32,001 nt of DNA from a virus. Where the stretch lies: the IMG/VR virus record IMGVR_UViG_3300050190_000058, positions 1 to 32,001 of that record; one strand, 5' to 3'. Below, in pieces: positions 3,804 to 23,879 of the stretch (position 1 is the stretch's first letter; each line of letters starts with the position of its first letter). The notes below the pieces were generated by a model that was not told the DNA's origin, ran no database searches, and saw nothing but the letters and a program-made list of their open reading frames with translations. The position numbers and the translations under genes are program-made.

Positions 3804-3987
3804 CCGTGAACTGTACGATGTTCAACGTGCGATATACGTCCCGGTAGCAAGGTGCACGTATAATATGCACCCCTGGGAGATGGACTACGGACAGGTAGAA
3901 CGGCACGGCTGCCTATCCTGGGTTAAACAGAGGCGCTGGGGGCGGCGGGTTTGTAAATATTTTAGGTCGCTAGAGGGGAGGCGGTAG
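3787..3987 (+). CDS. hypothetical basic protein, 66 aa
   Basis: ATG 3787 lies after GGCTGGGGGC. The product is Trp- and Arg-rich (HPWEMDYG, WVKQRRWGRRVCKY) and might bind nucleic acid. It sits just upstream of the replisome organizer. Function unknown and the start is only moderately supported. Confidence 0.5.
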   Translation: MSVAIDRELYDVQRAIYVPVARCTYNMHPWEMDYGQVERHGCLSWVKQRRWGRRVCKYFRSLEGRR

Positions 3988-3995
3988 GTGATTAA

Positions 3996-4826
3996 ATGGA
4001 AAACTTTTTACCATTACGGCGAGAGATAAGAGAGCATTGGATATATAAGGACTCCCAGTATTTTCAGGTGTGGTGCGAAATGCTATTTGCTGCCAGGTTT
4101 TCAAAAGAACCCAAAACAAATATTTACGAACACGTGCTTTATACCATCAATTACGGCGAGTTTATCTGTGGCAGAAGAGGTTGGTCTAGCCGGTTAAAAA
4201 TTGGTGAGCAGAAACTTAGAACATTAATCAAAAAACTCGAAAAAGATGCCATGATACAAACTGTATATATTTTTCCACACAGGTTTACTATCTATAAAAT
4301 CGTAAATTATGAAAAATATAACCTACCAAGCAACCCACCACAAACCTTAGTGGCAGAAGAGGTTAGCCTAGGTGCCAACCCACCAAGCAACCCACCGGTA
4401 ACCCACTGGCAACCCACCGGTAACCCACTGGCAACCACTAAAGAAGAAAGAAAGAAAGAAAAGAAAGTTAAGAATGATCAAGACATGGGTTTTACAGAGT
4501 TCTGGGACTGTTACCCAAGGAAAGTATCCAAGAAAAACGCTCAGTCTGCTTGGGCTAAGATAAGGCCTGACAAAGACCTTTTACAAAAAATGATTACTGC
4601 AATAAAGGATCAAAAGACTAGCCCACAATGGACCAGAGACAATGGAGATAGCATCCCCCATCCTGCTACATGGCTCAACGGCGAAAGGTGGAACGATGAG
4701 ACACAAAGGATAGGCTCATCCGGGGTAGATCATGCCATCCATTTTGACCCTGGCGAACTAGAAATTCGGAAGGAGCGTGAGCAAAACGAACGACCAACTA
4801 GTTCCCCCGGCCAGTCCGGAAGCTGA
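3996..4826 (+). CDS. phage replisome organizer / replication initiator (DnaD-like)
   Basis: 276 aa. The N-terminal 110 residues match the phage replisome-organizer winged helix (EHWIYKDSQYFQVWCEMLFAA, then INYGEFICGRRGWSSRLKI...KLRTLIKKL). A Pro-rich linker (residues 112-150) is encoded by an iteron array. The C-terminal domain (FTEFWDCYPRK...AQSAWAKI...IPHPATWLNGERW) is the one common in phage initiators next to helicases. It presumably melts the origin and recruits the helicase encoded next. The helicase start overlaps this gene by 50 bp. Confidence 0.8.
   Translation: MENFLPLRREIREHWIYKDSQYFQVWCEMLFAARFSKEPKTNIYEHVLYTINYGEFICGRRGWSSRLKIGEQKLRTLIKKLEKDAMIQTVYIFPHRFTIYKIVNYEKYNLPSNPPQTLVAEEVSLGANPPSNPPVTHWQPTGNPLATTKEERKKEKKVKNDQDMGFTEFWDCYPRKVSKKNAQSAWAKIRPDKDLLQKMITAIKDQKTSPQWTRDNGDSIPHPATWLNGERWNDETQRIGSSGVDHAIHFDPGELEIRKEREQNERPTSSPGQSGS
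4332..4480. other. candidate replication origin: 11-bp iterons in the initiator gene
   Basis: AACCCAC(C/T) occurs at 4332, 4377, 4389, 4400, 4411 and 4422. From 4389 to 4432 it forms four head-to-tail 11-bp units, alternating AACCCACCGGT and AACCCACTGGC. Eleven is not a multiple of three, so the repeat is not explained by protein repetition. A purine/AT-rich stretch (about 4438-4480) follows, as at the lambda origin inside gene O. An origin is inferred, not shown. Confidence 0.6.
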
Positions 4827-7736: not shown

Positions 7737-8001
7737 CACTCAGAAGTTGAAAGAGTTGGCAGAGAATGCAGCATCGGCAGAGTTGGGTCTGTCGGAAAAG
7801 TGGGTGAATGAAGAAAGCGCCATTGTCCTTGAATCTGGCGCCATAATTGCCGATTATGTGCTTTTTAAAGTAGTTTCAGATTACATCCTTGCCGTTCAGC
7901 CCCAGGCTATTCTTGCCCTGCTTGACGAGAGGGACGAGTTGGAAGCGGAAAACGCAAGGCTGGTGGAGCTGGGCAATGCACTACTGAAAGGTGCTAAGTA
8001 A
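7726..8001 (+). CDS. coiled-coil hypothetical protein, 91 aa
   Basis: ATG 7726 is preceded by GATGTAGAGG and overlaps the previous gene by 11 bp. The C-terminus forms a short coiled coil (ALLDERDELEAENARLVELG), similar to the preceding gene and to Ea22-like phage proteins. The stop overlaps the next start (TAATG). Confidence 0.6.
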   Translation: MKVDTQKLKELAENAASAELGLSEKWVNEESAIVLESGAIIADYVLFKVVSDYILAVQPQAILALLDERDELEAENARLVELGNALLKGAK

Positions 8002-8174
8002 TGGAGTATGAGCGAACCTACACAAATGGCTGTCAGTTTTGGGAGTTGCGGAAAGACTACCAGCCGATGAGCGAATTTGAGACAAAGGTAATTGATAACT
8101 GCGGGAATTGCCAGAGTTACGACTGGAAGATGGGGAAATGCGGAGAATGGACGTTTTTTGGGATGATCCGATAG
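8001..8174 (+). CDS. small Cys-rich protein with a borrowed C-terminus, 57 aa
   Basis: TAATG overlap with the previous gene. CQFW and CGNC...KMGKC are possible metal ligands. The last seven residues, WTFF then MIR, and the DNA around them match in frame the start and end of the membrane gene at 8369: 13 identical bases at 8147-8159 and 20 at 8162-8181. This 3' end therefore looks like the product of a deletion or recombination. Confidence 0.55.
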   Translation: MEYERTYTNGCQFWELRKDYQPMSEFETKVIDNCGNCQSYDWKMGKCGEWTFFGMIR

Positions 8175-15711: not shown

Positions 15712-15737
15712 AAGCCCTGCTTATTCAGCGGGCTTTT
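15711..15737. terminator. bidirectional intrinsic terminator
   Basis: AGCCCTGCT (15713-15721) pairs with AGCGGGCT (15727-15734) with one bulge. A-tract on one side and T-tract on the other serve both strands: the end of the MuF gene and the end of the minus-strand RHH gene, whose stop lies in the loop. Confidence 0.75.
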
Positions 15738-15870
15738 CATATTTCTTTAAAAGCATCTCTATTGCTTCTTGAACATATTGTGCTTGCGGAACTCTTGTTT
15801 CTTTTGATAATGTTTTTAGCTTTTCGCATACGTCTTTAGTTACGTAGGTGGTAAATCTTATCTTTGCCAT
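15721..15870 (-). CDS. ribbon-helix-helix (CopG/Arc-type) DNA-binding protein, 49 aa
   Basis: Minus-strand gene, start ATG at 15868-15870, stop at 15721-15723. The product reads MAKIRFTTYVTKDVCEKLKT, then LSKETRVPQAQYVQEAIEML and onward: a beta strand (KIRFTTYV), helix A (KDVCEKLKTLSKET), turn RVP, helix B (QYVQEAIEMLLKKY), the whole RHH fold in its usual length. RHH dimers insert the beta ribbon in the major groove. An AAAGGGGG site and a TATAAT box precede it. It faces the HNH gene at 15965 and probably represses both promoters. A sister copy lies at 20557-20709. Confidence 0.8.
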   Translation of the reverse strand: MAKIRFTTYVTKDVCEKLKTLSKETRVPQAQYVQEAIEMLLKKYEKPAE

Positions 15871-15891: not shown

Positions 15892-15944
15892 ATTATAACA
15901 CATACCACAAGATAATGATAACCAGCATAAACTTATGGTATAAT
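15892..15944. promoter_or_regulatory. divergent promoter pair of the first RHH/HNH cassette
   Basis: Minus-strand TATAAT at 15892-15897 and plus-strand TATAAT at 15939-15944 are 41 nt apart. Their -35 positions fall on the same bases (about 15916-15921: TTATCA read on minus, TGATAA on plus, both weak). The two -10 regions are inverted copies of TATAATATATA. Confidence 0.65.
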
Positions 15945-15964
15945 ATATATGAGGTGATAAACAA

Positions 15965-16645
15965 ATGCCATTCAAAACTAAAGAACAAAAAGAACAAAAA
16001 GATAAATATAATAGAGACTATTATTTAAAGAACAGAGAAAAAATATTAGGGCCAAAAAAGCAATATTATGAAACTAATATTGAACAGATAAAACAATACC
16101 GCGAAGACAATAAAGAAATGTTAGCTAAAAAGAATAAACAATATCATGAGTCCAATAAAGAATTAATTGCTATCCGTAAAAAACAGTGGTATATGGATAC
16201 TAAGGAAGCAAGACTCACGGTACATCAACATTGGTATGCTCTTAACAGAGAACTTATCATTAAGAAAAGGTTAGCATGGCAAAAGGTAAATAAAGATAAA
16301 GTCAATGTCATAGCTCAAAGACGCAGAACAAGAAAACATTTGTTACCATCAAATTTAACTTTTGAACAATGGGGAGAAACGAAACTACATTTTGATAATA
16401 AATGTGCTTATTGTGGCAAAGAATTGCCTTTGGTTCAAGAGCATTTCATAGCACTAAGCAAAAGCGGAGAATATACAATAAATAATATTATTCCAGCTTG
16501 TATGTCATGTAATAACTCAAAGGGCAATAAAGACTTCTTTGAATGGTATCCTAAATATCGCCATTACTCGAAGAAGCGAGAAAAAATCGTCCTCAAGTTT
16601 CTGAACTATAAAAACAATATTCACCAATTAGCACTTGCTTTTTAG
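15965..16645 (+). CDS. free-standing HNH homing endonuclease
   Basis: 226 aa. The N-terminal 120 residues are a Lys/Gln-rich helical series with repeated YxxxNKE and KKQ units, probably gripping DNA. The HNH core is CAYCGKE...EHFIALSKSGEYTINNIIPACMSCNNSKGN: Cys pairs CxxC and CxxC for zinc, His of EHF and the Asn residues for catalysis. The C-terminus KDFFEWYPKY...LALAF is almost the same as in the HNH protein at 20798. It interrupts no gene; it sits between MuF and scaffold genes. It is AT-rich and has its own promoter and terminator. Confidence 0.85.
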   Translation: MPFKTKEQKEQKDKYNRDYYLKNREKILGPKKQYYETNIEQIKQYREDNKEMLAKKNKQYHESNKELIAIRKKQWYMDTKEARLTVHQHWYALNRELIIKKRLAWQKVNKDKVNVIAQRRRTRKHLLPSNLTFEQWGETKLHFDNKCAYCGKELPLVQEHFIALSKSGEYTINNIIPACMSCNNSKGNKDFFEWYPKYRHYSKKREKIVLKFLNYKNNIHQLALAF

Positions 16646-16657
16646 CAGGTGCTTTTT
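16630..16657 (+). terminator. terminator overlapping the HNH stop codon
   Basis: AGCACTTGCT (16630-16639), loop TTTT, AGCAGGTGCT (16644-16653), then a T-run. The stop codon TAG begins in the loop, so the last residues LALAF are encoded by the terminator. The second HNH gene has the same structure. Confidence 0.8.
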
Positions 16658-17344: not shown

Positions 17345-17619
17345 TTGGCTATCAATACATTGGCATATGCAACCTTATTTATGCAAGAACTTGATAAGCA
17401 GGCCGTGGCAGGCGCTACGTCCGGCTGGATGGAAGGAAACGCAGGACTTGTTATTTACAACGGTGGCAATACGGTAAAGATCCCCAAATTAACCATGGAC
17501 GGACTGGGAAATTATGACCGTTCGTTAGGGTTCACCCAGGGTGCGGCTACTCTTGTCTATGAGACTAAAACGATGGGGCAGGACCGGGGTCGTACCTTTA
17601 TGCTTGATTCCATGGACGT
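17345..17619 (+). CDS. major capsid protein, exon 1
   Basis: The N-terminal 91 codons plus two bases of the major head protein, from TTG 17345 (AGAGGT upstream). Typical N-terminal arm of this HK97-fold family: AINTLAYATLFMQELDKQAV, GQDRGRTFMLDSMDV. The intron begins after the T of GGACGT at 17619. Joined to 19070-19718 the reading frame has exactly 308 codons (307 aa plus stop), and the junction reads SMDVNETNFVAN as in related capsid proteins. Unspliced RNA would stop four codons later, at 17630-17632. Confidence 0.85.
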
Positions 17620-17806
17620 TAAAGTCGCTTAACATAGCGTCCCTATATAGAGATATATAGTAAAAAAATAGGTGAACCTACAAATGTAGGGTGTGCGGAT
17701 TTATCCGTGCTAACGATGAAAAGCTAAGTTACAAGTTGCATTAAAAAAAGAGTGCTATGGTAGAGTGCTTTTTTGTGGTTTCTATGTTTTTAAACTCTGT
17801 ATATGG

Positions 17807-17812
17807 TATAAT
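17807..17812 (+). promoter_or_regulatory. -10 element inside the intron
   Basis: GGTATAATATATATG at 17805-17819 is identical to the sequence upstream of the HNH gene at 15965 and nearly so to that of 20798. No good -35 is seen. It would let the intron gene be made before late transcription. Confidence 0.55.
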
Positions 17813-17925
17813 ATATATGTAGGATAGGCGAAGGGTAGCTCCCCAAACCGACAAAGTGTTTTCCCAAACACTTTCCTATATACTAAAAATTGGGAAAAGA
17901 AGTAACCTTGGGAGGGTTATCTATT

Positions 17926-18867
17926 ATGTCTAAGAAATTAACAATCAAAGAAGTTAAACAGTTTGTTGAAGAAAATTCAAAATGCAAATTGTTATCTACA
18001 GAGTACAACAACAACCACGAAAATTTAAAATTCATATGCGGTTGCGGAAAAGAATTTTTAAGAAGTTTTAATAATTTCAATCAAGCAAAGCAAAGACAAT
18101 GTAACAAATGTAGTAATGTGAAAACCATAAAGTACACAATAGAAGGTGTGAAAAACTTTGTCAGGAATAACAGTAAATGCGAACTGTTAAGCGCAGAATA
18201 CATTGACTGCAAAACAAATTTAAGGTTTAGATGCGCCTGTGGTAATGAGTTTGAAACGCCATTTGATTGCTTTAAATCGGCAAATAAAAGGCAATGCGAT
18301 GATTGCACGAATGATAAAGTTAGAAACGAAAGAAATTACTCGTTCGAAGAGGTTAAGAATTTTGTTGAGGTAGAAAGCAAAAGTAATTGCAAACTATTGA
18401 GCACAAAATATATTAACAATCTCAGAAAAATGATGTTCCAATGTGAATGCGGCAATAAATTTGAAACAATATTCAGTAATTTTAAAAACATAAAGCAAGT
18501 GCGGTGTAAGAAATGTTCAAATGCAGTATCAGTTGCTGAATTTACTACTTCAACTATCTTAAAAGATAATGATATAGATTTTATTCCACAATATAAATTT
18601 ATTGATTGCAAACATAAACGAGGATTACCTTTTGATTTTTATTTGCCTTATTGCAATATAGCGATTGAGATAGATGGGTTACAACATTATAAGCCTGTTT
18701 GTTTTGGTGATATTAATTATGAAAAAGCCTTAGAAAATCTTAGCATACAGCAAAAACATGATGAGATAAAAAATGGTTATTGTAAACAAAATAATATTAA
18801 ACTAATAAGAATACCATATACAGAGTTTAAAAACATAGAAACCATATTAAAGAGCATTCTACCATAA
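17926..18867 (+). CDS. intron-encoded homing endonuclease, EDxHD/Vsr-like
   Basis: 313 aa from ATG 17926 (GGGAGGG upstream; the TTG at 17890 has no site). Three repeats of about 65 residues each end in CxCGxxF...RQCxxC: FICGCGKEF, RCACGNEF and QCECGNKF, zinc-ribbon DNA-binding units. The C-terminus has GLPFDFYLPYCNIAIEIDGLQHY, the pattern of Vsr-like EDxHD nucleases such as the intron enzyme I-Bth0305I. It probably cuts intronless capsid alleles so that repair copies the intron. Strongly AT-rich compared with the capsid exons. Confidence 0.8.
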   Translation: MSKKLTIKEVKQFVEENSKCKLLSTEYNNNHENLKFICGCGKEFLRSFNNFNQAKQRQCNKCSNVKTIKYTIEGVKNFVRNNSKCELLSAEYIDCKTNLRFRCACGNEFETPFDCFKSANKRQCDDCTNDKVRNERNYSFEEVKNFVEVESKSNCKLLSTKYINNLRKMMFQCECGNKFETIFSNFKNIKQVRCKKCSNAVSVAEFTTSTILKDNDIDFIPQYKFIDCKHKRGLPFDFYLPYCNIAIEIDGLQHYKPVCFGDINYEKALENLSIQQKHDEIKNGYCKQNNIKLIRIPYTEFKNIETILKSILP

Positions 18868-19069
18868 TGCTCTTTTTTTAATGCAACTTGTAATATGCCA
18901 ATATCGTGCCAATCCTTAGAGATAAGGAAGGTGTAACGACTAAATTGAGCGTAAAAGCTCTAAGAGGTTCAATGTGAAATTCATTGTTCCGTAGCGCCTA
19001 TCCCCTAGTAATAGGGTGAAGAGATAGTCTACTCCCCTAATAAATATCGGGAAACCGAGGGTATAAAGG

Positions 19070-19718
19070 AAACGAGACCAACTTTGTTGCAAACGCTAGT
19101 AATCTAATGGGCGAGTTTCAGCGCGTTCAGGTTATTCCTGAAATTGACGCTTATCGCTACAGCACAATCGCTTCTCTCGCTATCGCAGGCAGCAGGGCAT
19201 CTGGTGGATATGCCCCCGACAAGGCTACTATCCTTACTAAGATTAAAGAAGACATCGCAGCTATTCAGGATGCAATTGGAGCTGTTCCCCTGGTTATCAC
19301 CATGTCTATTGCAACACTGGCTGTCCTCGAGAATTCCACTGAGATGGTTCGCCAGCTTGAAGTTGGGGCTTTCTCCGGTACGATCTTGAGCGAAGTCAAA
19401 AAGGTTGACGAGTGCCCGATCATGGAAGTACCGAGTGCCCGGCTGAAGACCGCCTATGTCTTTAATGATGGCAAGACTACCGGCCAGACTGTTGGCGGCT
19501 TTACTCCCGCTGGCACCGCCAAAACCATTAACTGGATTATCTGTGCACAGAATACTCCTATCGCCATCAGCAAGACTGACAATATGCGGATCTTCGACCC
19601 GACCACCAACCAGGCCGCAGATGCTTGGAAGCTTGACTATAGAAAATACCATGACCTGTGGATTCTGGACAACAAAATGTCAACTGTCTTCGTAAACTGC
19701 AAAGAGGCGCTTGTCTAA
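19070..19718 (+). CDS. major capsid protein, exon 2
   Basis: The remaining 216 residues of the capsid protein: NETNFVANASNLMGEFQRVQ, VIPEIDAYRYS, and a C-terminal domain ending FVNCKEALV. Internal ATG 19107 could mimic a gene start but cuts off conserved sequence. The stop overlaps the next ATG (TAATG). GC content and codon use return to those of the phage core genes. Confidence 0.85.
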
Positions 19719-20259: not shown

Positions 20260-20548
20260 CTACAGTGTGGGCGTGTGGAACCGGGAGCCGAGCACAAAAG
20301 TAAATGGCGTGACTATCCCGGGGGTGCTGGCGTGGGTAAGGGACACTGATGTAGATATGCAACCCTATAGCCAAGAGCTTTTAATTAAGGCTTATGGCTA
20401 TGACATCCCAGTTACAAAGCGGTTTTTTATCGAGGACGTGACGGATATACAGATTGGCACAATCTTAATGTATGGCACAGAAAAGCACGAAGTTAAAAAG
20501 GTTCTGGCCTGGGATGTTTTCGAGGTTATGACCTTGGAAGCACAATAA
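20240..20548 (+). CDS. head closure protein (SPP1 gp16-like)
   Basis: 102 aa. Small beta-rich protein between adaptor and gp10-like genes, the standard place of head-completion stoppers. Seen: DMQPYSQELLIKAYGYDI, IQIGTILMYG, which fit the family's beta barrel. ATG 20240 follows GTAAGGA; ATG 20249 is an alternative. The second RHH/HNH cassette begins right after its stop. Confidence 0.7.
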   Translation: MATMLSNYSVGVWNREPSTKVNGVTIPGVLAWVRDTDVDMQPYSQELLIKAYGYDIPVTKRFFIEDVTDIQIGTILMYGTEKHEVKKVLAWDVFEVMTLEAQ

Positions 20549-20550
20549 AG

Positions 20551-20571
20551 AAAAACCTACTTTTCAGTAGG
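20551..20571 (-). terminator. terminator of the second RHH gene
   Basis: On the minus strand CCTACT, loop GAAA, AGTAGG, then five T (plus-strand 20551-20571). The gene's stop codon lies in the stem. Unlike the first cassette it lacks a T-run on the plus strand, so it acts one way. Confidence 0.7.
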
Positions 20572-20709
20572 CTTCAAATAATTTTCCAGTATTGTAATTA
20601 CCAAATTGTTGAAACTCCTGTTTTCCTTGGCTGCCAACCCTTCTAATTGCTTTTTTAAGTCCTTGTTAATGATTAAATTTGCTCTTACCTTATCTTTGCT
20701 TATGCTCAT
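20557..20709 (-). CDS. ribbon-helix-helix (CopG/Arc-type) DNA-binding protein, 50 aa
   Basis: Minus-strand gene, ATG at 20707-20709, stop at 20557-20559. The product begins MSISKDKVRANLIINKDLKK and goes on QLEGLAAKENRSFNNLVITI, then LENYLKPTEK: beta strand (KVRANLII), helix A (KDLKKQLEGLAAKEN), turn RSF, helix B (NLVITILENYLK), a standard RHH. GAGGTG lies 6 bases before the start. It diverges from the HNH gene at 20798. Sequence identity to the RHH at 15721 is low, yet length, fold and position agree, so each HNH gene has its own partner. Confidence 0.8.
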   Translation of the reverse strand: MSISKDKVRANLIINKDLKKQLEGLAAKENRSFNNLVITILENYLKPTEK

Positions 20710-20727
20710 GATATTCACCTCAATAAT

Positions 20728-20779
20728 AGTATAACATATGTATAAAGATGTTGCAATGTTTACGTAACTGTGTTATAAT
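20728..20779. promoter_or_regulatory. mirrored divergent promoters sharing one -35 box
   Basis: TTGCAA at 20751-20756 is its own reverse complement. On the plus strand TATAAT (20774-20779) lies 17 nt from it; on the minus strand TATACT (20728-20733) also lies 17 nt from it. Both arms continue into GAGGTG. One repressor bound here could close both promoters. Confidence 0.75.
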
Positions 20780-20797
20780 ATATATGAGGTGAAAAGA

Positions 20798-21571
20798 GTG
20801 AAAGCTAAGGTATGCAGTAAGTGCGGTGAAGAATTACCCTTAACGAGTGAATATTATAGAAAAGGCTTGGAAAGCAAAGATGGGTTTTATAATACTTGTA
20901 GGAGCTGTATTAATGAACAAAAAAGACGGCACTACTTGGATGTTAGAGATCGTTGCTTAGATTATAATAAACAATACAGTAAAGCGAATAAAGAAATTAT
21001 AGCAAAACAAAGAAAGCAACATTATGACGAAAACAGAGAAGTTCTTATTGAAAAGTCTAAACAATATCAAGACGATAACAAGGAAGCCACGGTTAAGCGT
21101 CTAAAACAATGGAAGGAAAAAAATAAGGAGCATTGTGCTGAATACGGGAAACAGTATAGAGAAGGGCTGAATAAGGAGACCTATAACAAAAGCCAAAGGC
21201 AATATCAAAAAGAACATCCGGAAAAGTTTAGAGGTTACTACCATAAGCGCAATGCTTTGAAACTTGAATTATTGTCTACATTAACACCCGAGCAATGGGG
21301 AGTAATTAAGCAATGTTTTAACAGTTGTTGCGCTTATTGCGGGAAGGAAGCACATCTTGAACAGGAACATTTTATTGCTTTAAGCAAAGGTGGGGAATAT
21401 ACTCACAATAACATTTTGCCCGCTTGTAAAAATTGTAATAGCAGTAAAAATAATAAAGATTTCTTTGAATGGTACCCGAAATATAAATATTACTCAAAGA
21501 AAAGAGAAAAGCAAATACTTGAATTTTTAAACTACAAAAACGGAATACACCAATTAGCACTTGCTTTTTAG
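20798..21571 (+). CDS. free-standing HNH homing endonuclease with N-terminal zinc finger
   Basis: 257 aa from GTG 20798, six bases after GAGGTG; GTG 20789 lies in that site. It adds an N-terminal CSKCGEEL...CRSC zinc finger to the plan of the HNH protein at 15965. Then come KQYxxxNKE-type repeats and the HNH core CAYCGKEAHLEQEHFIALSKGG...NNILPACKNCNSSKNN. The C-terminus KDFFEWYPKYKYYSKKREK...LALAF is nearly the same as in the other copy. It sits between head closure and gp10-like genes, AT-rich, with its own promoter and terminator. Confidence 0.85.
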   Translation: MKAKVCSKCGEELPLTSEYYRKGLESKDGFYNTCRSCINEQKRRHYLDVRDRCLDYNKQYSKANKEIIAKQRKQHYDENREVLIEKSKQYQDDNKEATVKRLKQWKEKNKEHCAEYGKQYREGLNKETYNKSQRQYQKEHPEKFRGYYHKRNALKLELLSTLTPEQWGVIKQCFNSCCAYCGKEAHLEQEHFIALSKGGEYTHNNILPACKNCNSSKNNKDFFEWYPKYKYYSKKREKQILEFLNYKNGIHQLALAF

Positions 21572-21584
21572 CAGGTGCTTTTTT
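21556..21584 (+). terminator. terminator overlapping the second HNH stop codon
   Basis: AGCACTTGCT (21556-21565), TTTT, AGCAGGTGCT (21570-21579), T-run. Identical to the stem and loop at 16630-16653. Confidence 0.8.
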
Positions 21585-21606: not shown

Positions 21607-21963
21607 ATGGAATATAAATCTAACTTACCACAGGTTATTGCTGCCATGAAACTCTGTCGCCGTGAATTTTGCCAGGGTGTGGGTGCTATGGTGGTGGAAA
21701 CGGTTCAAGGCATAACCCCCATTGGGGTAAAACCTGATCCACATCCTGGCAACCTAAAAAGATCCGTAACTTATGAGGTGATGTCAGGTGATGAGGGCGT
21801 TACCGTGGGCGTAACTGATGATGCCAAATATGCCTTAACAGTAGAAAAAGGGCTTCATGGCCAGAGAGCACAGCCGTACCTTGAACCCGGTGCAATGGCG
21901 AGCCTCCCCAAAATTACAGGGGTCGCTGAAGGTATTTACATGTCGAAACTAGGCGGTGAATAA
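21607..21963 (+). CDS. HK97 gp10-like head-tail protein
   Basis: 118 aa; ATG 21607, 8 bases after GGGGAGG (TTG 21604 also possible). Features of the gp10/neck family: N-terminal helix, TPIGVKPDPHPGNLKRSVTYEV, VGVTDDAKYALTVEKGL and a final QPYLEPGAMA. It helps close the head or join the tail. TAATG overlap with the next gene. Confidence 0.75.
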   Translation: MEYKSNLPQVIAAMKLCRREFCQGVGAMVVETVQGITPIGVKPDPHPGNLKRSVTYEVMSGDEGVTVGVTDDAKYALTVEKGLHGQRAQPYLEPGAMASLPKITGVAEGIYMSKLGGE

Positions 21964-22346
21964 TGCTTAATCTTTACACATTGATCAATTCCCTGATTGA
22001 ACCAATCTGCCCGTGTTTCGTTGATCACTATCCCGAAGACGAGGCAAAGGTATTTCCCTACGCAGAGATTCAATTTTCGAACACCTTGCCAAACAATACA
22101 TTCTCTGACAATAACCTGCTTTCAATAACCATCTGGGATGACAAGGGCACGGACATAACCGAGATCGAGGGCATTGCCGATGCAATTCACAAGGTGCTAA
22201 ATCGTCTGCAATATAACAATGCGGCTATGTATGTATCGATCAACCGGAACACGCCGTACAGACTTGTACTGCCTGATCCGATCATCCATATTCAGCGCAG
22301 GGAATTGAGGTACATTTCTACTGTGTACTATAAACAAACCGGCTAA
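21963..22346 (+). CDS. tail completion / tail terminator protein
   Basis: 127 aa. Position and pattern (INSLIEPICPCFVDHYPED, FPYAEIQFS, ITIWDDKGTDITEIEGIADAIHKVLNR) fit the gp17/DUF3168-like tail terminators that cap the tail tube before head joining. A terminator with a 49-bp repeat follows. Confidence 0.7.
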   Translation: MLNLYTLINSLIEPICPCFVDHYPEDEAKVFPYAEIQFSNTLPNNTFSDNNLLSITIWDDKGTDITEIEGIADAIHKVLNRLQYNNAAMYVSINRNTPYRLVLPDPIIHIQRRELRYISTVYYKQTG

Positions 22347-22347
22347 C

Positions 22348-22396
22348 TAAATATTCATTGGTAATTAGCACCCCGTGTGGGTGCTTTTTTTATTAC
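22348..22396 (+). repeat. 49-bp direct repeat with terminator, copy 1
   Basis: Contains AGCACCC (22367-22373) and GGGTGCT (22379-22385) with loop CGTGT, then a T-run. The same 49 bp recur at 23831-23879 with one mismatch (T/C). Confidence 0.85.
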
Positions 22397-23358: not shown

Positions 23359-23387
23359 TTGCAAAAAGGTTGTAATAGGTATAAAAT
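23359..23387 (+). promoter_or_regulatory. promoter of the zinc-ribbon membrane gene
   Basis: TTGCAA (23359-23364), 17-nt spacer, TAAAAT (23382-23387). With terminators on both sides it makes the following gene a moron-like unit. Confidence 0.5.
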
Positions 23388-23410: not shown

Positions 23411-23833
23411 ATGAAGTATTGTAAAAACTGCGGACAGAATGTAAGCCCCACTAAGAATTTTAGTTTTGGCTGGTTTATAGTCAATTGCTTATGGTTAGTC
23501 GGTGGAATTGTATATATTTTTTATTTCCTGTTTATGAAGAAAAAGGTTTGCCCTATCTGCGGTGCTGCAAACTTTGAACAGAAGCACAGCGCAGAAGAAA
23601 TACAAACTAATAAAGCAGGCTTTCCACAAATAGTCCCACTGTCCAAAGTAGATAGAATGAACGAAAATTCAATCATAGCCTTAGAAAAGGCCCAGGATAG
23701 GGCTGTAATAGCCAAGGCTAAGTATGCAAGAGTAAAGGAAAAAAGGATTGAAGATAATAGAATCTGGCGAATAAAAAGTGCAGAAAAGAAAGCCGCAAAA
23801 GCAGCCAAAAAAGCAGCCAAGCTGGCAAGTTAA
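23411..23833 (+). CDS. zinc-ribbon membrane protein, moron-like cargo
   Basis: 140 aa; ATG 23411 after AAAGGGAGGGG. Starts YCKNCGQNVSP, one transmembrane helix (WFIVNCLWLVGGIVYIFYFLF), then a second CPICGAANF ribbon, so two Cys pairs flank the membrane segment. The C-terminus is a Lys/Ala-rich helix (EKKAAKAAKKAAK). It does not fit tail assembly, has its own promoter and terminator, and sits between tube and chaperone genes. Possibly a lysogeny or host-interaction factor; function unknown. Confidence 0.65.
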   Translation: MKYCKNCGQNVSPTKNFSFGWFIVNCLWLVGGIVYIFYFLFMKKKVCPICGAANFEQKHSAEEIQTNKAGFPQIVPLSKVDRMNENSIIALEKAQDRAVIAKAKYARVKEKRIEDNRIWRIKSAEKKAAKAAKKAAKLAS

Positions 23834-23879
23834 ATATTCATCGGTAATTAGCACCCCGTGTGGGTGCTTTTTTTATTAC
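23831..23879 (+). repeat. 49-bp direct repeat with terminator, copy 2
   Basis: 48 of 49 bases match 22348-22396. Here the first three bases are the stop codon of the moron gene. The hairpin and T-run form its terminator. Confidence 0.85.

Follow-up and report, generated by a model that had tools for sequence, protein, structure and literature searches.

The window, i.e., the whole stretch of DNA that was analysed, is a 32,001-base IMG/VR record with siphovirus-like structural genes on the plus strand. At positions 20728–20779 it carries an outward divergent pair of sigma-A-type promoters with one palindromic -35 box (TTGCAA) common to both. The plus-strand promoter has TTGCAA at 20751–20756, a 17-nt spacer and the -10 box TATAAT at 20774–20779 (10/12 matches in the consensus scan), and the minus-strand promoter has the same hexamer read from 20756 to 20751, a 17-nt spacer and TATACT at 20733–20728 (9/12 matches). 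Both -10 boxes are extended, with TG preceding them. An earlier sequence-only reading of this DNA had described the palindromic hexamer with a -10 box exactly 17 nt away on each side, which the sequence and the consensus scan confirm, and arms continuing to GAGGTG both ways. These were also recovered: the 23-nt arms (20714–20736 and 20771–20793) are 83% complementary around the common centre 20753.5, and both reach GAGGTG ribosome sites.

The same reading missed the genes that the two promoters drive, a small ribbon-helix-helix (RHH) gene leftwards and an HNH endonuclease gene rightwards. RHH-2 (20557–20709, minus strand) encodes a 50-aa, Arc/CopG-like RHH protein, the probable repressor of both promoters. 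It matches the PHROG Arc-like repressors (E 3e-9) and Pfam RHH_5 (E 0.0021), the latter under the Pfam cut-off, so its RHH assignment rests on PHROG and close relatives. The AlphaFold monomer (pLDDT 74) has the two helices and lacks the strand, and its best Foldseek matches in the PDB are the RHH proteins StnY, CopG, AmrZ, and Arc, with weak E values of 0.4–3. The HNH gene (20789–21571, plus strand) encodes 260 aa when read from GTG 20789; GTG 20798, which follows GAGGTG, is the likelier start and gives 257 aa. The product matches Pfam HNH (E 2.4e-8) and HNH_5 (E 8.6e-9), and endonuclease VII / HNH in PHROG. Both genes have an intrinsic terminator with a 10-pair stem overlapping the stop codon, that of RHH-2 at 20552–20575 (minus strand, T-rich tail) and that of the HNH gene at 21556–21579 (plus strand, T tail). 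An Rfam search at the gathering threshold gave no match.

A second copy of this plan lies upstream and is referred to as the first cassette. It includes RHH-1 (15721–15870, minus strand, 49 aa; Pfam RHH_3, E 3.5e-18, 65.7 bits, cut-off 21.6) and an HNH endonuclease gene (15965–16645, plus strand, 226 aa; Pfam HNH, E 7.8e-10), which ends in a terminator (16630–16653, plus strand) with the same stem-loop as that at 21556–21579. The RHH domain of Arc/MetJ/CopG repressors is thus found in both small proteins, in RHH-1 by Pfam and in RHH-2 by PHROG. The two HNH proteins of the window are 52% identical in alignment, and HNH genes lie here amid structural genes, as expected of homing-type nucleases between phage genes. 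The first-cassette -10 boxes, both extended by TG, are TATAAT on the minus strand at 15892–15897 (ATTATA on the plus strand) for RHH-1 and TATAAT on the plus strand at 15939–15944 for the HNH gene, and a palindrome, CATAAACTTATG (15926–15937), a candidate RHH-1 operator, lies beside the latter. The sequence-only reading had given the -10 boxes of the two cassettes as equally 41 nt apart and had the -35 positions overlap in the first. The measured gap is 40 nt at 20728–20779; it is 41 nt only for the first cassette, where TTGCAA is absent, the -35 matches are weak and the spacers are 18 nt.

Candidate links to anti-phage defence were rejected. The RHH proteins match no defence family, and the matches of the HNH proteins (best E 3e-5) are confined to the HNH stretch of PtuB and PDC-M01B, with the 20789–21571 product alone also matching the HNH stretch of a type IV methyl-directed restriction enzyme model.

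Further features were noted in the region. A group I intron (17633–19069) with an endonuclease-like gene (17890–18867) splits a capsid-type gene (17345–17632 / 19107–19718), and positions 18818–19051 match Rfam RF00028 at 29.7 bits (E 3e-5), under the gathering score. The string TATGGTATAATATATATG, found at 17796–17813 upstream of the intron gene, is that of the first cassette's HNH promoter (15934–15951). Nearly identical terminator-bearing stretches (22343–22395 and 23827–23879) follow the gene at 21963–22346 and a zinc-ribbon gene (23411–23833), and the latter may itself be a further insertion, with a separate TTGCAA promoter near 23360.

Taken singly, the promoters at 20728–20779 do not stand out, and the consensus scanner by itself did not distinguish them from background (3 found; shuffle mean 4.3). 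The exceptional feature is the mirrored combination. A mirror site with at most one mismatch per -10 box occurs once in the window and in none of 300 dinucleotide-preserving shuffles. The pattern ATTATA-N17-TTGCAA-N17-TATAAT was found in 98 IMG/VR stretches, as against 1 and 5 for the control spacings N21 and N13. Shuffles and control spacings together rule out chance in AT-rich DNA. A small RHH gene flanks 59 of the 98 loci by a lenient threshold (E < 0.2), these 59 including six weak matches of one type and one cut by a contig end. Clustering at 85% identity reduces the 59 to 28 clusters and the other 39 to 26 clusters. These 39 (among loci L024–L121) have no called RHH neighbour and are still above the control counts, so mirror promoters are not confined to RHH-nuclease cassettes.

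The geometry was also examined in RHH genes collected by protein similarity alone. Starting from 73 RHH hits in loci L128–L171 and L202–L235 and in the window, with loci L172–L201 left out, 55 distinct upstream regions remained once hits were removed that had less than 90 nt upstream, lay in reading frames above 150 aa or duplicated the final 90 upstream bases of another hit; the second window cassette stands in this set as its identical copy L202. Loss of spacing in homologues had been named in advance as evidence against the arrangement, and the spacing proved to be kept: the -10 boxes lie 39–41 nt apart in 40 of the 55 regions, compared with 3.7% of 2,200 shuffles, by a best-fit score that rewards -35 matches. 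With the -10 boxes scored alone, the gap is found in 31 of 55 regions vs. 4.3% in shuffles. None of the 2,200 shuffles combined the gap with a central TTGCAA or TTGTCAA. By source, the gap is present in 1/11 regions from the first whole-genome RHH search, in window cassette 1 (1/1), in 17/18, 1/1, and 5/5 from three other RHH protein searches, and in 15/19 from a search with a query resembling the pattern-found RHHs, a resemblance by which the TTGCAA majority of this last set, and not the TTGTCAA group, is partly built in. The 15 regions without the gap include 10 of the 11 from the first whole-genome search, most of which may belong to other RHH proteins.

The centre of the site tracks the gap. 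Among regions with gaps of 39 or 40 nt, the 6-bp TTGCAA goes with 40 nt (25/25) and the 7-bp TTGTCAA, which comprises two -35 hexamers offset by one base, goes with 39 nt (7/7), with a Fisher P of 3e-7 that is indicative since related rows are not independent. Both combinations yield 17-nt spacers each way. In 38 cores, the -35 match averages 4.26/6 at a 17-nt spacer; at the 14 remaining spacer lengths between 10 and 24 nt it is 0.5–2.5, highest at 18 (2.49) and 16 (2.04). By these measures, the geometry is tuned, the -35 centre and the -10 gap varying together. Three loci (L142, L153, L154) have a -10 gap of 50 nt, one helical turn beyond 40, and ten-base repeats of an operator-like word; in L153 and L154, two -35 boxes one helical turn apart are visible by eye.

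A second palindrome is present. In the spacer of the HNH promoter of the window lies a perfect 8-bp palindrome, TTACGTAA (20760–20767), the candidate RHH-2 operator, which is kept in L245 and L205. Palindromes were tested in 39 clusters of cores in which pattern-selected and RHH-selected loci are mixed. Of the 31 clustered cores whose -10 gap is 40 nt, 13 have a palindrome with at least five of six pairs and its centre 11.5 nt from the nuclease -10 box (null 0.9%), and none has one at the mirror position (27.5); the palindrome thus sits in the spacer of the nuclease promoter, and not in that of the RHH promoter. Eight cores with a 39-nt gap gave no clear peak in the 12-bp test (best 1/8).

The palindromic word differs with the class of RHH. 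Words of the CTACnnGTAG type were found in 12/12 class-B (RGLKNRTP-type) cores, GTCCnnGGAC-type words in 9/13 class-A (KDLKTRTP-type) cores, CTTATAG in 7/9 LKNRVRIG-type cores, and RTGnTATCAC-like words in 10/16 class-F (RSFNNLV-type) cores, the other 6/16 lacking it; RHH classes and words were defined after inspecting the sequences, and the counts are therefore descriptive. The position of TTACGTAA is that of the class-F palindrome in relatives. The RHH-class-dependent palindrome is read as a candidate operator, and common descent can also produce an association of operator word and RHH class.

The nucleases opposite the RHH genes are of several types. Of 45 distinct partners in the pattern set, 30 were scanned (the remainder being 7 under 60 aa and 8 others), and 27 of these 30 match a nuclease family at E ≤ 0.01, a few of them under the curated cut-off: HNH types (11), TnpB (8), GIY-YIG types (7), and LAGLIDADG (1). 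In the RHH-selected set a partner was called in 43 of 55 regions and none in 12. Matches among the 43, in which some proteins match two families, were to the TnpB TNB domain (11), OrfB_IS605 (10), HNH (10), GIY-YIG (6), SegE (2), LAGLIDADG_3 (2), HNH_2 (2), and HNH_3 (1). TnpB partners are full-length by NCBIfam, e.g., guided_TnpB in L158 (E 1e-95). By family assignment, the partners of the RHH-promoter module belong to unrelated nucleases (HNH, GIY-YIG, LAGLIDADG, and TnpB).

Exchange of partners can be followed between close relatives. L245 and L246, the records from which L204 and L203 were taken, come from phages closely related to that of the window (portal protein 96% identical). In both, the RHH-promoter module lies directly after the portal stop codon, ahead of the minor head gene, and in L245 it is accompanied by a GIY-YIG (SegE-like) gene. 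The corresponding site of the window (14833) is empty and the portal and minor-head genes abut, so the module is present in two close relatives and absent from the window at this junction. Window positions 20546–20794 are 86.3% identical to L245 5933–6181, with 50/52 identities in the promoter block and 123/153 in the RHH coding part; the SegE-type GIY-YIG partner in L245 is unrelated to the window HNH protein (blastp E 8.5). Similarly, the RHH of L223 is 87% identical to RHH-1 and its partner is GIY-YIG. The first cassette is absent from L245 at 7817–8123, where the flank has diverged, and L245 ends before the site of the second cassette. L245 also has an HNH gene (3811–4485) between terminase and portal, where the window genes abut; no RHH was seen beside it, and a near copy of TATGGTATAATATATATG lies ahead of it. 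The capsid-type gene of L245 is uninterrupted, unlike the intron-split copy of the window.

Among named phages, a search with the HNH protein returned 41 records and no close relative (best identity 39%), and in regions H1, H3, and H7 no RHH gene is annotated divergently from the HNH genes. Scans based on HNH gave mostly distant HNH or other proteins, with no RHH cassette in the 12 loci inspected, and an empty-site search via the neck protein gave one weak match in 391 genomes. RHH matches in named phages were mainly in Streptococcus thermophilus phages, with a ACTACATGTAGT palindrome and a -10 gap of 50 nt by eye, and further in Geobacillus E3, Bacillus KLEB27-3, Psychrobacillus Perkons, and Staphylococcus S-CoN_Ph26. 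The last has the sole annotated divergent HNH / Arc-like pair among these matches, with a 39-nt gap around TTGTAAA by eye and GTGATATCAC at the class-F palindrome position. In this isolated phage, which lends itself to experiments, the pair (L240, 1118–1944) lies between the portal and head protease genes.

Geometry, its conservation and tuning, the class-linked palindrome, partner swapping, and presence or absence at different junctions are all evident at the sequence level. They make it probable, in our judgement, that the locus is a mobile nuclease cassette in which the RHH protein shuts off both promoters and the orientation of the polymerase adds mutual exclusion; binding of RHH, repression and promoter competition are what we infer from them. 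The nuclease, a free-standing one of homing type, and its small RHH repressor would be transcribed back to back from the mirror-symmetric promoters. Early in infection, before repressor is present, both promoters would fire, the polymerase binding one way or the other; on steric grounds it would serve one side at a time. As RHH accumulates, it would bind the palindrome, and further subunits would cover the shared -35 box and turn both promoters off. Because the main palindrome lies inside the nuclease promoter only, this promoter would be shut first and most tightly. Nuclease would thus be made in a brief burst that limits itself, sufficient to home into a co-infecting phage lacking the cassette while doing the carrier phage little lasting harm. 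Any repressor or mutation touching the shared -35 box would alter both promoters, so the nuclease would not be easily freed from its repressor.

With a shared -35 box and promoters of near-equal strength, the site could also operate by passive competition, with no repressor at the site and a symmetric promoter that makes the polymerase pick a direction and so fixes the product ratio. This is an unlikely account, as one of the two products is a repressor-type RHH beside an RHH-class-dependent palindrome, and as published bidirectional promoters compete only when strongly active: in the available part of that work, five tested E. coli promoters with a common -10 box showed competition only with one direction strongly active (PMC12825309). 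Competition for polymerase had been the central proposal of the sequence-only reading. The shared palindromic -35 box and the conserved spacing of that reading are supported, and competition itself is plausible as a secondary component. The repressor-like gene and the palindrome had been overlooked; the repressor-like product together with an RHH-class-specific palindrome in the promoter makes repression of both sides the likelier main control.

Another rival is a toxin-antitoxin or addiction pair, in which RHH would bind the nuclease directly and neutralise it, and which would be kept because its loss kills. Type II antitoxins often have RHH domains. RHH-1 has a weak RelB-family match (E 0.0031, 17.7 bits vs. 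a cut-off of 50), and the antitoxin EndoAI appeared at E 0.011 in the PDB profile search. Against these, the RHH proteins of 49–50 aa have hardly any tail for toxin binding, the genes are divergent and not in one operon, and close RHH relatives have partners from unrelated families, an HNH nuclease in the window and GIY-YIG nucleases in L203 and L223. The type II toxin-antitoxin assignment was rejected for the 50-aa RHH, given its divergent gene and several unrelated partner families, and the addiction reading is the least probable of those considered. Alternatively, RHH could act in trans, mainly on promoters elsewhere in the phage or its host in an immunity-like manner, the nuclease being a passenger on a ready promoter. 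This would agree with the absence of a called RHH gene from 39 of the 98 pattern loci and with the control of phage immunity regions by RHH repressors, as in the sections available on P22 mnt-arc-ant (PMC8022706). This reading appears highly improbable, as RHH genes mostly adjoin a nuclease, with one per viral record in most records searched, and as the position of the second palindrome within the promoter of the cassette itself is fixed.

The finding goes beyond what the sequence-only reading described. The RHH-promoter unit is a recurrent, probably mobile regulatory module common to unrelated selfish nucleases. More tentatively, and with somewhat less than even confidence, it may represent an undescribed class of mobile element, in which an exchangeable chassis of RHH and mirror promoter, the latter with its tuned common -35 box, moves between phage junctions and takes any selfish nuclease, including RNA-guided TnpB, with repressor-operator specificities that differ from one another; if so, several cassettes in one genome would not silence each other. 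As selfish genes, homing nucleases and TnpB put their carrier at risk, and to our knowledge the restraint of free-standing phage nucleases has been described largely in T4. One repressor acting on one symmetric promoter, in combination with nucleases of unrelated families, would be a simple, widespread and testable answer in phages of Gram-positive hosts. The natural series of promoters with co-varying -35 box and spacing may serve as a test bed for the choice of direction by polymerase, and the cassettes as a ready collection of repressor-operator pairs.

Several known systems share parts of this plan. By term counts, the words ribbon, promoter and TnpB do not occur in the main text of a survey covering nuclease genes in phages (PMC10448857). 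No description of an RHH-nuclease cassette with a mirror promoter was found in the titles and the opening parts of abstracts listed for RHH proteins, homing nucleases, TnpB, bidirectional promoters and P22, a scope with subscription journals and bioRxiv mostly outside it. Bidirectional promoters of E. coli and Salmonella have reportedly been studied by Warman, Grainger and colleagues. Like the mirror promoter, these have pseudo-symmetric DNA and two mutually exclusive polymerase orientations, and one of the set, acrR, encodes an auto-repressor of both directions, as proposed here for RHH (PMC12825309, sections available). They have a common -10 box and starts close together, whereas the mirror promoter has a common -35 box with -10 boxes 39–41 nt apart facing outward; the site at 20728–20779, with its -10 boxes 40 nt apart, is not a bidirectional promoter in the sense of starts flanking a common -10 box.

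In P22 mnt-arc-ant, the promoters are divergent and overlapping and the Arc operator lies inside the ant promoter. The immI region, where mnt and arc sit in the late operon according to the part of the source at hand (PMC8022706), controls an antirepressor gene, has two repressors and gives no evidence of partner swapping, whereas the window cassette controls a nuclease. CopG and the archaeal plasmid ORF56 / SvtR are of similar size to the cassette RHH (about 45–56 aa) and have the RHH fold. They are small autoregulated repressors. They control plasmid copy number or virus genes, without a nuclease partner.

Homing nucleases of T4 are similar to the cassette in lying in gene junctions and in having their own promoter and an operator-promoter overlap, and I-TevI is an autorepressor whose operator overlaps its promoter, as stated in the available portion of the source, according to which free-standing T4 nucleases mostly borrow promoters (PMC2988022). 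I-TevI represses with its own DNA-binding domain, whereas the cassette has a separate, dedicated RHH common to unrelated nuclease families. The TnpB-type partners are by sequence full members of the RNA-guided endonuclease family of IS200/IS605 elements, and differ from these in being divergent from an RHH gene via the mirror promoter.
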